This document shows, one piece after another, positions 7,833-53,818 of a stretch of 64,000 bases of DNA (its first letter is position 1; each line of letters begins with the position of its first letter). Source of the DNA: Psychrilyobacter piezotolerans (GTDB taxonomy: Bacteria > Fusobacteriota > Fusobacteriia > Fusobacteriales > Fusobacteriaceae); the NCBI RefSeq assembly GCF_003391055.1, contig NZ_QUAJ01000008.1, forward strand, positions 1-64,000, given 5' to 3'. Under the pieces are notes generated by a model, which was not told the origin of the DNA, did not search any database, and saw nothing but the letters and a program-made list of their open reading frames with translations. The position numbers were made by a program, and so were the translations under genes.

Positions 7833-7849
7833 GTTTAATGATAGCAAGG

Positions 7850-7883
7850 AAAGGCACTTAGAAAAATTCTAAGTGCCTTTTAT
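7850..7883 (+). terminator. Terminator after the GGDEF gene
   Basis: AAAGGCACTTAGAA (7850-7863) and its perfect complement (7867-7880) form a 14-bp stem followed by a short T run. Confidence 0.85.
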
Positions 7884-8208
7884 AATTTCACTCTAAATTC
7901 CAATCTTAGATGCCGCTTTATCGTTTTAACTGAGTTAATAAAATTAATTTCATTTTTATGTATATATAACATATATGAATTTTTGTTATCTGTTAAGTAT
8001 AGGATATTAGGAAGAATTTTTAAAACAAACATTTGTTTTTTTAAATTTAAAATACTATTTTTATAATACTTTATACATATTTGATAGTAATAAACTATCA
8101 ATAAAACTCATAATTACCAATATATCAATTTAATATATATATTTTTAATATAGTGAAATAACTGGTACTCTAATTGTATAAATAAAATTTTAATAGGAGG
8201 AAATACAA
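7884..8208. other. Very AT-rich spacer with no clear gene
   Basis: A minus-strand frame of 73 codons exists here but has low-complexity Ile/Tyr/Lys composition and no ribosome binding site, so I do not call it. The end of the stretch should contain the promoter of the small gene at 8209; TATAAA-like words occur near 8177. Confidence 0.4.
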
Positions 8209-21865: not shown

Positions 21866-23200
21866 TTAAGCTTGATTTAATTTACTTTCTCTAACAGTTT
21901 CTTTCTGCTTTATCTCTTTAGGCAGGATCACATTTAATATAACTGCTATTCCCGCTGATACAACTATTCCAGATCCTCCAAAGATTAATTTAAATGATTC
22001 AGGCAAATAAGTTAATGCTTCTGGAACACTTCCCATTCCAAACCCTACTCCCAAGGCCACAGCTACTATAACTGCATTCCTGCCTACTAATTTTTCTTTT
22101 GTGATCAGGTTTATCCCACTGATAGCTATCATTGCAAACAACATAACCAAACTTCCACCTATAACACTGGCAGGTATTACAGATATTAACGCTCCTATTT
22201 TCGGAATAAATGCTCCCACTATCAGGAACATAGCCCCTGTTCCTACAACAAATCTACTCATAACTCCTGTCATGGCTACTATTCCTGTATTCTGACTGAA
22301 TGAAGTAGTAGGTAAGATACTGAAAGAAGCTGCTATAACTCCTCCAAAACCATCGGCTAAAATTCCTCCGGATAACTCCTTGTCTGTTACTTCCCTGTTG
22401 GCTCCACCCATTGTTACTCCTGACATGTCTCCTACCGTTTCCACAGCTGACACTACATACATGAGCATCATTGCTAATATAGCATCCAGATGAAATTCCA
22501 GTCCATATGTAAATGGTCTAGGTACTACAAAGTAACTGGCCTGGCTTACAGCTCCGAAATCGATCTTCCCCATAAATCCTGCTATTATTATTCCTGCTGC
22601 TGTTCCAACTGCTATTGCTGCTGTTCTCCAAATACCCTTTGCAAACTGGTTAAAGATAATAACAACTATAAGTACTATCCCGCCTAATAGCAAATTTGAC
22701 AGTGATCCAAAATCTTTTGCTCCAAATCCACCAGCTAAGTTTTTTATCCCAACCGGTAATAGTGACAACCCTATAGATAAAACTACCACACCTGTTACGA
22801 TTGGCGGGAAAAACTTTCTTACTTTTCTCATGAATAATCCGATAAATGCTTCGAATAATCCCCCTACCAGGGCTGCCCCTAACACACCTTCAAATCCATA
22901 TTTCAATCCGATTGAGATAGCTACAGGTACAAATGCAAAACTTGTCCCCACAACAACCGGTAATCTGGCTCCAATAGGCCCTATTCTGTATGCCTGAATC
23001 AATGTATTTACTCCCGATACAAACATAGTACACTGGATTAAAAATGTCAATTTATCACTTGGAATTCCTATAACTCCTCCAACTATTAATATCGGTGCCA
23101 GGTTGCTCACAAACATAGCTAATATATGCTGTAATCCTAATGGTATAGCTTCCTTAAGTACTGGTACTCCATCTAAATCATATGGTGATCTATTTTTCAT
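21866..23200 (-). CDS. NCS2 xanthine/uracil-type purine permease
   Basis: 444 residues, about 14 hydrophobic segments. The NCS2 signature is present (TTSFSQNTGIVAMTGV, about 285-300), and the N-terminal LGLQHILAMFVS block is typical of the xanthine/uric acid branch (PbuX/UacT-like). Imports purine for the xanthine dehydrogenase encoded next. A longer frame runs up to 23275 but lies inside the riboswitch terminator; ATG 23200 has a perfect AGGAGG and begins the family N-terminus. Expression is governed by the purine riboswitch upstream. Confidence 0.9.
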   Translation of the reverse strand: MKNRSPYDLDGVPVLKEAIPLGLQHILAMFVSNLAPILIVGGVIGIPSDKLTFLIQCTMFVSGVNTLIQAYRIGPIGARLPVVVGTSFAFVPVAISIGLKYGFEGVLGAALVGGLFEAFIGLFMRKVRKFFPPIVTGVVVLSIGLSLLPVGIKNLAGGFGAKDFGSLSNLLLGGIVLIVVIIFNQFAKGIWRTAAIAVGTAAGIIIAGFMGKIDFGAVSQASYFVVPRPFTYGLEFHLDAILAMMLMYVVSAVETVGDMSGVTMGGANREVTDKELSGGILADGFGGVIAASFSILPTTSFSQNTGIVAMTGVMSRFVVGTGAMFLIVGAFIPKIGALISVIPASVIGGSLVMLFAMIAISGINLITKEKLVGRNAVIVAVALGVGFGMGSVPEALTYLPESFKLIFGGSGIVVSAGIAVILNVILPKEIKQKETVRESKLNQA

Positions 23201-23250
23201 TTTTTTCCTCCTAAAGTCTTTATATAACTCTAATTGTGATTCGAGTAAAC

Positions 23251-23294
23251 AAAAAATGCCTACTCCTCCCAACAAGTGAGAAAAATAGGCATTT
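23251..23294 (-). terminator. Riboswitch expression-platform terminator
   Basis: Minus strand AAATGCCTA (23294-23286) pairs with TAGGCATTT (23262-23254) followed by a T run. The 5' part of the loop contains TCACT, which can pair with AGTGA at the 3' edge of the aptamer, so terminator and antiterminator appear mutually exclusive. Confidence 0.75.
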
Positions 23295-23352
23295 AGGTTA
23301 AAAGACTCCCCTTAATGTATTAAGATAGGGTCCACCATATACTTAATTTTTT

Positions 23353-23419
23353 CACTCATAGTAGGTCGTTTACGGTGACCTGTAGAGACGCTCCTCCTTA
23401 TTAGGAGCATATACGAGTT
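23353..23419 (-). promoter_or_regulatory. Purine riboswitch aptamer, guanine type
   Basis: On the minus strand the three-way-junction pattern is complete: P1 ACTCGTA with TATGAGT, P2 GCTCCT/AGGAGC with loop AATAAGG, J2/3 GTCTCTAC, P3 AGGTC/GACCT with loop CACCGTAAAC, then J3/1 ACTATG. The GG of loop 2 and CC of loop 3 can form the kissing contact. The base equivalent to position 74 is C, which by established knowledge selects guanine/hypoxanthine over adenine. It precedes a terminator and a purine permease, so ligand should switch the operon off. Confidence 0.9.
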
Positions 23420-23432
23420 AATTTATGTGGTT

Positions 23433-23461
23433 ATAATACGATATTTATACGACAATGTCAA
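23433..23461 (-). promoter_or_regulatory. Promoter of the purine permease/xdh operon
   Basis: Minus strand perfect TTGACA (23461-23456), 17-base spacer, TATTAT (23438-23433). Transcription would begin just before the riboswitch aptamer. Confidence 0.75.
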
Positions 23462-41286: not shown

Positions 41287-41459
41287 AGACCCTCTCCTTA
41301 TATATAACAAAGATATTATTATCTTATTTACAGTCAGTCAGGAATTTCCTTTAATCACAGCAATGAATTTCTACTTGCGTATGTACAAAGGTAATCTTTA
41401 AAAACAATATTTCCTAACATTTATAGTAAATTAAAGTATAAAATTATACCGATTTTATA

Positions 41460-41504
41460 TTGACACTAACTTAATAATGGAGTATAAGTATATTATTAAG
41501 TTAG
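41460..41504 (+). promoter_or_regulatory. Consensus promoter overlapped by a 13-bp inverted repeat
   Basis: TTGACA (41460-41465), 17 bases, TATAAG (41483-41488). CTAACTTAATAAT (41466-41478) fills most of the spacer and its exact complement lies at 41492-41504, so the two arms flank the -10 box. This is the layout of a TetR/MarR-type operator; the repressor is not encoded nearby. It could instead form an RNA hairpin only in part, since the first arm lies upstream of the start site. Confidence 0.65.
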
Positions 41505-41530
41505 GAATTTAAAAACAAGGAGGCGGTAAT

Positions 41531-41563
41531 GATGATGAATTTAAAAGAGGTAAGGAAAAAATA
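41531..41563 (+). CDS. Ten-codon leader-type ORF before the MFS exporter
   Basis: AAGGAGG (about 41517-41523) is followed by ATGATGATG; one of these starts MMMNLKEVRKK or a slightly shorter peptide ending at TAA (41563-41565 region). A run of A sits at its end: one extra A would extend the frame to KKIIEEFRLLQ before a stop. It is followed by a terminator, so it looks like a leader peptide or the stump of a lost gene. Limits are approximate. Confidence 0.35.
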
Positions 41564-41612
41564 ATAGAAGAGTTTAGGTTGCTTCAATAGTTATGAGTTT
41601 AAGAAATTAAAT

Positions 41613-41650
41613 TTAAGTCTATTTAGGATCCCCCTAGATAGGCTTTTTTT
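41613..41650 (+). terminator. Leader terminator before the MFS exporter
   Basis: AAGTCTATTTAGG and CCTAGATAGGCTT pair (two wobble pairs) and are followed by seven T. It lies between the tiny ORF and the exporter, so it could act as an attenuator. Confidence 0.7.
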
Positions 41651-41794
41651 ATACTTTTTTTTACTATTGATTGTGATGGAATTAAAGAAATATTAAAAAA
41701 TTTAAAACTGAAAAGTGGAAAAGGTTTATTTTTTATAAAAAATTTATAAAGAATAAAATAGGAGATTTATTGTTTAATTAACAAGGAGGCAAAC

Positions 41795-42994
41795 ATAAAA
41801 AATTTAATTATATTTTTATTAGGTCGTTTTAGTTCAATGGTAGGAACAGGTTTATTACAAATAGCTTTACCGCTATATATTTTAGATGAGACAAATTCTG
41901 TATCAAAGTTAGGAACATTTGTAGCTCTAATGGCAATACCAGCACTCTTAGCATCGCCATTTGTTGGGAGCTATGTAGAGACAAATAATAAAAAGCATAT
42001 AATGGTGATTACTGACTACATACAAGGAGTTTTATTCATTAGTTTATTCTTTATAGGCGACTTGAGCCTATTTAATTTAGGATTGATACTAACAATCTCA
42101 TTATTAATAGAAAAAATATTTGATCTGTCTACCTCTTCAATTTTTTCAAGAATTGTAGATAAAAAACTATTTGAAAAAGGAAATAGTTGCAAAAGTATAT
42201 TAGATAACACATCGTTTTTAATCAGTCCTATATTGGGGACCTTTATCTATATTAAATGGGGGCTCAGTGGAATATTTCTAGTAAATGGAGTAACTTTTTT
42301 ATTGTCAGGAACTATTGAAATATTTATTGATTATATCCATGAGGAAACTAAGATGATATCTAATAATTTTATAGAAAATTTAAAAGAAGTGATAGATTTT
42401 ATATTTTCAAATAAAAAATTAAAAAACTTTGTCATAACCATAATGTTACTCAACTTATTTATGACTCCAATGTTTGTTATAATTTTTCCATACCTTACAC
42501 TCCAAATCAATTTATTGACTAAAGCTCAATATGGAATAGGTAGTTCACTGGGTATGGCTGGAGCCATAGTAGGAGCTTCATTTATTATTTTTAAAAGCCA
42601 GAAAGCTAGAATATCAACTCTTATAAATATTGAATCAATTTTAATAATGGGAATAGGAATTTTCTCACTGATATTTTTAAGGAATATACCTTTATTTTTT
42701 ATAGTATATTCATTTTTAAGGTTTTCACTTGGAGTTATAAATACAATGGTAAATGTTCCTTTAACTTCAGGATTTCAAGAGGCAGTTCCAAAAGATATGC
42801 AGGGAAGATTTTTTGGTATAGTATTTTTTATTTCAGGACTATTAATTCCCATAGGAAACCTTGTAATAGGAGAAATATCTAAGTGGATCAGACCTCAGTT
42901 TATCATAATAATAAATTGTTTTATATTAATCTTTATAACAACAAAACTATTAGGAAAAAATGAAAATAAAAATTGGATTAAAGATATACTGTAA
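41795..42994 (+). CDS. MFS exporter (macrolide-efflux-like) with an ATA first codon
   Basis: About 400 residues, 12 hydrophobic segments, of the MFS_3-type efflux group (GRFSSMVGTGLLQIALPLYI near the N-terminus, then GSYVETNNKK in the 2-3 loop). The first ATG is at 41837, but it falls in the middle of helix 1. In the same frame a perfect AAGGAGG (41783-41789) is followed at the right distance by ATA (41795) and KNLIIFLLGRF, the normal family N-terminus. So either ATA is used as start or an ATG was mutated. Controlled by the leader described above. Substrate unknown. Confidence 0.78.
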   Translation: MKNLIIFLLGRFSSMVGTGLLQIALPLYILDETNSVSKLGTFVALMAIPALLASPFVGSYVETNNKKHIMVITDYIQGVLFISLFFIGDLSLFNLGLILTISLLIEKIFDLSTSSIFSRIVDKKLFEKGNSCKSILDNTSFLISPILGTFIYIKWGLSGIFLVNGVTFLLSGTIEIFIDYIHEETKMISNNFIENLKEVIDFIFSNKKLKNFVITIMLLNLFMTPMFVIIFPYLTLQINLLTKAQYGIGSSLGMAGAIVGASFIIFKSQKARISTLINIESILIMGIGIFSLIFLRNIPLFFIVYSFLRFSLGVINTMVNVPLTSGFQEAVPKDMQGRFFGIVFFISGLLIPIGNLVIGEISKWIRPQFIIIINCFILIFITTKLLGKNENKNWIKDIL

Positions 42995-43314
42995 AGTTGT
43001 AATTATAAATTAGGAGGAATAAATGACAGGTAGAATTATATCGGTATTTTACAAAGATAGCATATCAAGATAAGAAAAAATATTTCTAAAAACCCATCAA
43101 TTAGAACGTTAGCTTTGAACTTCAAATATGATTTTATTGAAAATCATTAACAAGGTTTGCTTTTTTAATTTCTTAGATAATAAAAAAAGGTGATTTCTAT
43201 CTTTTTAGAGGACTTCTTTTTTAAAATTGGTATTATATATCATACTGTCTCTTACCTAAATTTATTTGAGTATTATCAGCGTAGGAAAAATAAGTTACTC
43301 TGGAGGTTAAAAAT
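42995..43314. other. Spacer between the MFS gene and the nqr operon
   Basis: AGGAGG at 43013 precedes an ATG (43023) that encodes only 16 residues (MTGRIISVFYKDSISR), perhaps a stump of a lost gene. A 21-base word at 43167-43187 (TTTCTTAGATAATAAAAAA with flanks) is identical to one at 8549-8569. The nqr promoter must be here, but no hexamer pair stands out. Confidence 0.4.
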
Positions 43315-53771: not shown

Positions 53772-53780
53772 AATATCGGA

Positions 53781-53818
53781 AAAGGGAGCAATAATTCAAA
53801 AAATTATTGCTCCCTTTT
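53781..53818 (+). terminator. Strong terminator of the 27-aa gene
   Basis: A perfect 16-bp stem starting AAAGGGAGCAATAATT (53781-53796; 53802-53817), then T. Confidence 0.9.

Follow-up and report, generated by a model that had tools for sequence, protein, structure and literature searches.

The exporter gene analysed here lies in a 64,000-nucleotide stretch of Psychrilyobacter piezotolerans contig NZ_QUAJ01000008.1 (positions 1 to 64,000), the whole of which is called the window. The gene is carried by a 1819-bp insert (41374..43192) between lipB and rnfD. The insert is absent from both congeneric genomes with the lipB-rnfD order (G054 and G058), in which lipB stands beside rnfD at a distance of about 250 bp, and genome G056 has neither lipB nor the exporter in the region before rnfD. 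According to the alignment, the borders fall at 41373/41374 and 43192/43193, with the sequence ATTTCTA at each side (41367..41373 and 43193..43199), a possible target duplication or microhomology. Besides the exporter, the sole ORF of at least 60 aa in the insert is a 64-aa antisense frame inside the exporter, and no regulator ORF was found there.

The exporter frame (41795..42994, plus strand; Pfam, NCBIfam, and alignment) follows the ribosome site AAGGAGG (41783..41789, plus strand, read directly). The first-pass annotation had placed an exporter downstream of a terminator, and the gene was identified as a member of MFS_1 (E 2e-24). TIGR00900 was the best NCBIfam match, its score of 198.8 bits falling short of the cut-off (319.6), and no match to a Mef model came near the cut-off of that model; the Mef(A) model, which would mark a mef(A) macrolide exporter of the kind preceded by a MefAL leader, gave 43.4 bits against 675. 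Relatives at E <= 1e-30 comprised four matches with 28-32% identity in two other genomes among the 61 of the family that were searched, own genome included. Plasmids yielded 223 matching records, all below 60%, the best-ranked at 32.7% (best 30 of 223). A pattern scan of the genome contig collection for a donor returned 17 stretches, none of them a relative by tblastn.

The codon five bases past the GGAGG of the exporter is ATA (41795-41797), and the frame has no ATG, GTG or TTG between the upstream stop and the first ATG at 41837. When five exporters were aligned, the window frame, taken from 41798, was level with the first residue of one homologue and began 3 residues ahead of another, and two other homologues reach further upstream. 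AUA is able to start translation weakly. An arginyl-tRNA synthetase-like gene in G058 has ATT at the start position after GGAGG (L045:3030-3032), so near-cognate starts may be used in the genus.

Promoter and leader elements of the exporter

A promoter composed of TTGACA (41460-41465) and TATAAG (41483-41488) with a spacer of 17 nt was read directly on the plus strand (41460..41488). It is missing from the promoter-scan list because under the scan rule the sixth base of a -10 box must be T. A perfect, operator-like 13-bp inverted repeat with a spacer of 13 bp surrounds the -10 box (41466..41504, arms CTAACTTAATAAT...ATTATTAAGTTAG), and the arrangement of consensus promoter and repeat described in the first-pass annotation is therefore present at 41460-41504. 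A search for the repeat matched once in the window, and 100 shuffles gave no match. In total, nine perfect repeats of this arm length (13 bp), with spacers between 3 and 40, occur in the window, a count that includes two overlapping at 53780, compared to 0-2 in each of 20 shuffles; the repeat at the promoter is thus beyond chance, yet such repeats are not rare in the window. At 53780-53818, perfect inverted repeats are nested (AAAAGGGAGCAAT, spacer 13, and GGGAGCAATAATT, spacer 5).

Operators of the TetR/MarR type carry an inverted repeat over the -10 box, and the repeat in the window resembles them in this position. It differs from such systems in that the insert has no regulator gene and the genome has a single site. 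The search for further copies of the repeat near a TetR/MarR gene, which had been proposed as a check, returned no second site when up to 3 mismatches were allowed across the whole genome; being a palindrome, the single operator-like site is reported on both strands. Neither the adjacent regulator gene nor the second operator of a TetR/MarR-controlled efflux operon was found in the insert and genome searched. What stands of the proposed repressor control is a real and well-placed repeat; against it are the insert without a regulator ORF, the single genomic site, and the differing promoter region of the intact leaders described below. Repressor control of the exporter promoter is plausible but unsupported.

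Downstream of the promoter, a strong ribosome site AAGGAGG (41517..41523, plus strand, read directly) precedes the tiny ORF MMMNLKEVRKK* (41529..41564, plus strand), both as annotated before. The ORF runs from ATG at 41529 to TAA at 41562-41564, comprises 11 codons and is followed by TAG. Read from the second ATG (41532), it becomes MMNLKEVRKK with 10 codons and TAA TAG, and the intact leaders of relatives have 10 codons and TAA TAA. The short leader ORF with a ribosome site upstream that characterizes ribosome-mediated transcription attenuators is thus seen in the sequence at 41517-41564. One extra A would indeed lengthen the ORF to 20 codons, but the suspicion that it is a stump left by a lost A was not borne out, since the ORFs of relatives are likewise 10 codons long and have their tandem stops at the corresponding position, and the part missing from the window lies after the ORF. 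A frameshifted regulator stump was rejected for the same equality of ORF length and stops; the 20-aa reading with the added A had no Pfam family match and matched the genome only at its own place.

An intrinsic terminator with a U tract (41615..41650, plus strand; scan and folding) is located between the tiny ORF and the exporter, as the first-pass annotation had it and as found in ribosome-mediated attenuators between leader ORF and gene. The hairpin at 41615-41645 with its T tract was the only one found in 41380-41800, compared to 0.0 +/- 0.2 in shuffles, and 41605-41652 folds at -15.9 kcal/mol (z -4.1, equalled by 0/200 shuffles); the whole window leader folds at z -0.93. The terminator belongs to a 3' segment (41569..41665, plus strand) common to the intact leaders in G054 and G058 at 80-83% identity. 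Within this segment, a candidate antiterminator (41579..41629, plus strand) is predicted, in which AAUAG (41586-41590) pairs with CUAUU (41619-41623) round a hairpin at 41594-41615 (-9.3 kcal/mol, z -2.3). At the gathering score, Rfam gave no match of a leader or riboswitch family to the leader, the sole match in the window being a purine riboswitch elsewhere (70 bits, 23339-23436, minus strand), ahead of a 469-aa ORF (21866-23275).

A leader family in two congeneric genomes

A DNA search of 98 genomes of the phylum with 41375-41800 detected copies of the 3' part, 80-83% identical, in G054 and G058. Matches at E <= 0.01 were recorded in 92/98 genomes and, among the matches listed, those outside the G054 and G058 copies were taken as AT-rich chance. 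The two genomes contain four intact leaders, each composed of a promoter (TTAGACA...CTACAAT), a ribosome site, a 10-codon ORF ending with TAA TAA, approximately 100 nt of middle, and the 3' segment. The encoded peptides are MKNLRGSKTI, MKNLRGSSTI, and MGNLTGVDVI (twice), and ORF length and tandem stops are the same in 4/4, a regularity in keeping with ribosome-mediated attenuators. The earlier reading depended on conservation of the tiny ORF and hairpin in relatives, and all four leaders carry both. Their promoter region differs from that of the window. The ribosome site and start region of the window (41513-41552, 40 nt) is 82.5% identical to the corresponding part of two intact leaders; as one place in G027 matches the same stretch equally strongly, this match is weak alone, and the case for the family rests more on the order of parts.

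Two intact leaders (G058 C2 and G054 C2) precede the gene of a 154-aa GNAT acetyltransferase, and two (G054 C3 and G058 C1) that of a 288-aa kinase-like protein. The best solved match of the GNAT protein aligning over about two-thirds was an aminoglycoside acetyltransferase (E 7e-4), ranked below three short ubiquitin matches (28 residues). The kinase-like protein, presumptively so called after the motifs D....N / FDYN in an unproven reading, had no Pfam or PDB family match of note, its AlphaFold model was of low confidence (mean pLDDT 46.6), and Foldseek returned no match below E 0.3 among the best 50 of 72, the insignificant matches in that set including aminoglycoside phosphotransferases and choline kinases. 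The kinase-like gene has an in-frame TAA in the G058 copy (L044, C1) and is open in the G054 copy. Both proteins were without plasmid matches and each was present in 2/98 phylum genomes at E <= 1e-10.

The arginyl-tRNA synthetase-like gene of G058 C2 (L045:2400-3060, then to 4775; argS model, 373 bits from an internal ATG) has an upstream region of its own, consisting of TTGACA at 2400, the 23-codon ORF MLIRRIRMRRRKPINPIILKWLD with 6 Arg codons, and a terminator, followed by the second ORF MLRESFRKSKLYNLIFFYNR and another terminator. This region is likely a double Arg-leader attenuator. Directly after the gene there is a terminator-only copy of the leader 3' end (L045:4770-4825), and the sequence past it resembles the region before the GNAT gene.

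Model R1, built from six sequences (the four intact leaders, the window, and the terminator after the argS-like gene), had 11 matches in 7/98 genomes at E <= 0.01, namely, the six source sequences and five weak ones. On reading, the latter looked like ordinary terminator hairpins to which no other leader parts belong and were dropped from the family for this reason, which leaves the leader only in G054, G058, and the window. Model R2 had matches in 2/98 genomes at E <= 0.001 and no window match in the genome search; in a local search, the window scored 35 bits, not far above the 26.5 bits of the window hairpin 7846-7944. As R1 and R2 necessarily match the sequences from which they were built, the informative result is that no further copies were found; weak copies may be missed because these genome searches score only 36 candidates per genome with strict filters. 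Plasmids provided one weak 54-nt match inside a coding gene, and phages none. Exact patterns found no leader in the genome contig and viral contig collections. All these collections may lack genomes closely related to that of the window. Rfam gave five matches in L044-L047 (E 0.042 to 5), none of which reached the gathering score or lay over a leader. No description of such a leader was found in the titles and abstracts of the papers listed by literature searches.

Leader parts are conserved to different degrees. With gap columns excluded, the four cross comparisons between leaders of unrelated genes gave 94.8-98.7% identity for the 3' segment (95-99% rounded), 82.1-93.0% for the middle, 78.5-80.0% for the part from promoter to ribosome site, 66.7% for the ORF, 48.6-61.8% after the terminator, and 49.5-71.8% upstream of the promoter. 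Identity between the two species is 85.6% for the GNAT gene, 97.4% for the 3' segment of its leader, and 88.9% for the middle; it is 94.3% for the kinase-like gene and 95.1 and 95.3% for its leader. The RNA is therefore better kept than the gene at the GNAT locus and equally kept at the kinase-like locus. The leader copies could also resemble one another because of exchange between them.

In intact leaders, the stops are separated from the conserved AAGAGTTTAGG by 98, 104, 106, and 106 nt, and no such interval exists in the window, where comparison with the intact leaders puts the site of the missing 98-106 nt at 41567..41569. The window leader keeps the ribosome site, ORF, and terminator, and is without all of hairpin H1 and without the 5' arm of hairpin H2, the predicted anti-antiterminator. 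AAGAG is located just 3' of the stops in all four intact leaders; the right border has it in 2/4 and one-base variants of it in the other two. The exact place of the missing part is ambiguous because it is inside this AAGAG-like repeat. With AAGAG at both borders, deletion between short repeats would be the simplest reading of the comparison, loss in the window versus gain in the others being not polarised. The window leader is probably truncated and its switching impaired.

Predicted folding and the proposed switch

Folding of the intact leaders placed H1 right after the stop codons (z -1.7 to -2.9, 96.8% of cells paired). The long hairpin H2 had z -2.7 to -4.1 against dinucleotide shuffles in 4/4 intact copies, for a stretch chosen after folding, and 115/115 counted cells pair, compared to 28.6-55.2% when slid, for a structure drawn from one of the four; its variation is one-sided only. 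In the antiterminator, 96.7% of cells pair over five sequences including the window, with one compensatory pair, and its stability in intact copies is weakly above shuffles (z -1.2 to -2.0). Compensatory changes amounted to 0/33 pairs in H1, 0/29 in H2, and 1/20 in the antiterminator, counted over four intact leaders that form two similar pairs and, for the antiterminator, the window; the covariation term of RNAalifold for five leaders was unfavourable (+2.51). One intact leader had z -1.41 as a whole and -0.23 when it was cut before the terminator.

The 3' arm of H2 overlaps the 5' arm of the antiterminator, giving the order H1 (or pairing of the ribosome site and ORF) versus H2 versus antiterminator versus terminator. 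In predicted folds of transcripts cut just before the terminator 3' arm, the antiterminator appeared in 4/4 intact leaders without a ribosome, and H2 appeared instead in 8/8 when the ribosome site and ORF were masked as by a ribosome. The terminator formed in 15/15 full-length folds (five leaders, no mask and two masks), so a switch depends on the order of folding.

These folds suggest a three-state attenuator. In intact copies with a freely translated ORF, H2 would capture the antiterminator 5' arm, the terminator would form, and the gene would be off. If translation of the ORF were hindered, upstream sequence, either the stretch past the stop codon or the ribosome site and ORF themselves, would capture the H2 5' arm, and the antiterminator would form and the gene be read. 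Leader-peptide attenuation, as proposed in the first-pass annotation, is reasonable for the family given its anatomy and modelled folding, since its four intact copies, all with a ribosome site, a 10-codon ORF, and one common terminator segment, stand upstream of two resistance-like genes that are unrelated to each other. For the window copy the proposal is weakened, because the missing 98-106 nt include the predicted anti-antiterminator 5' arm. With this arm gone, the translation-coupled switch of the window would be broken or much weakened, and the exporter would be left with a terminator, a weak antiterminator, a promoter possibly controlled by a repressor, and a poor ATA start. Low, mostly uninduced expression of the exporter is expected.

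Alternative readings and relation to known attenuators

Taken together, the window feature probably belongs, in truncated form, to a family of transcription-attenuation leaders that is specific to the lineage and serves resistance-type genes, and resides on a horizontally gained exporter unit. Alternatively, a repressor acting at the 13-bp inverted repeat could exert most of the control, with the tiny ORF and terminator as relics. The perfect repeat over the -10 box, beyond chance, and a promoter region not common to the intact leaders speak for this, and the insert, whose ORFs of at least 60 aa are the exporter and the antisense frame, and the genome, with no other site at up to 3 mismatches, speak against; we regard it as possible rather than probable. 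A comparable standing, short of probable, is given to decay of the whole unit, with a truncated leader and a lost ATG, so that the exporter is not made. The 98-106 nt gone from the leader and ATA where a start is expected fit such decay, but the frame of 399 codons from ATA is without stops, the terminator and ribosome sites are well kept, AUA can initiate weakly, and ATT likewise occupies the start position of the argS-like gene in G058.

The window leader would be complete and functional, only simpler, if stalling on the tiny ORF favoured the AAUAG/CUAUU antiterminator and the exporter were then read, as for mef(A). The R-K-K of the tiny ORF fits the Arg/Lys-x-Arg/Lys macrolide arrest motif, the exporter has matches, at scores far short of the cut-offs, among the models of Mef macrolide exporters, and the ORF, terminator, and window antiterminator (-9.3 kcal/mol, z -2.3) are retained. 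We hold this to be unlikely: AT-rich DNA readily encodes Lys/Arg-rich peptides, about 50 nt separate a ribosome on the ORF from the terminator, which is predicted with and without ribosome masks, and the ATA start points to poor expression. Still more improbable is a shared 3' segment that represents a mobile or duplicated terminator with no regulatory role. One extra terminator-only copy follows the argS-like gene of G058 (C2:1788273-1788325), as such mobility would have it, but four copies carry promoter, ribosome site, ORF, middle, and terminator as a unit ahead of genes, and the segment common with the window starts about 46 nt before the terminator stem. The truncated attenuation leader on an acquired exporter unit is the reading that we prefer.

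Among described systems, the leaders MefAL and MsrDL of mef(A)/msr(D), which act by transcription attenuation, share a very short ORF with a ribosome site and an intrinsic terminator, and mef(A) likewise encodes an MFS exporter after the terminator, as far as the account in PMC10314930 extends. In the same account, MefAL is MTASMRLR with the arrest motif +x+; the window differs by its peptide, an exporter far below the Mef(A) cut-off, and no known inducer, and the intact form of the family has a middle of about 100 nt that is missing in the window. By its description in PMC4191407, the bmrB leader of BmrC/BmrD in Bacillus subtilis is a ribosome-mediated attenuator that the family resembles, but bmrB has 53 codons with the terminator inside the ORF, whereas the ORF here has 10 codons and the switch is downstream. 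The VmlR leader, as outlined in PMC9226507, is similar in combining a uORF with transcription attenuation of a resistance gene, and differs in that the downstream protein is an ABCF factor.

More tentatively, the family may be an undescribed, exchangeable antibiotic-sensing leader of one lineage, in which a three-state RNA switch has come to precede three or more resistance genes of unrelated kinds (acetyltransferase, kinase-like, and exporter), the RNA being conserved and the 10-codon peptide varied with the gene to suit each drug. If true, the lineage would have its own attenuator family for resistance genes, in which genes unrelated to one another share a single RNA switch, conserved at the acetyltransferase to a higher degree than the coding sequence. 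The window would hold the remains of such a switch without its middle, and the comparison of intact with truncated copies would test which half of the leader senses.
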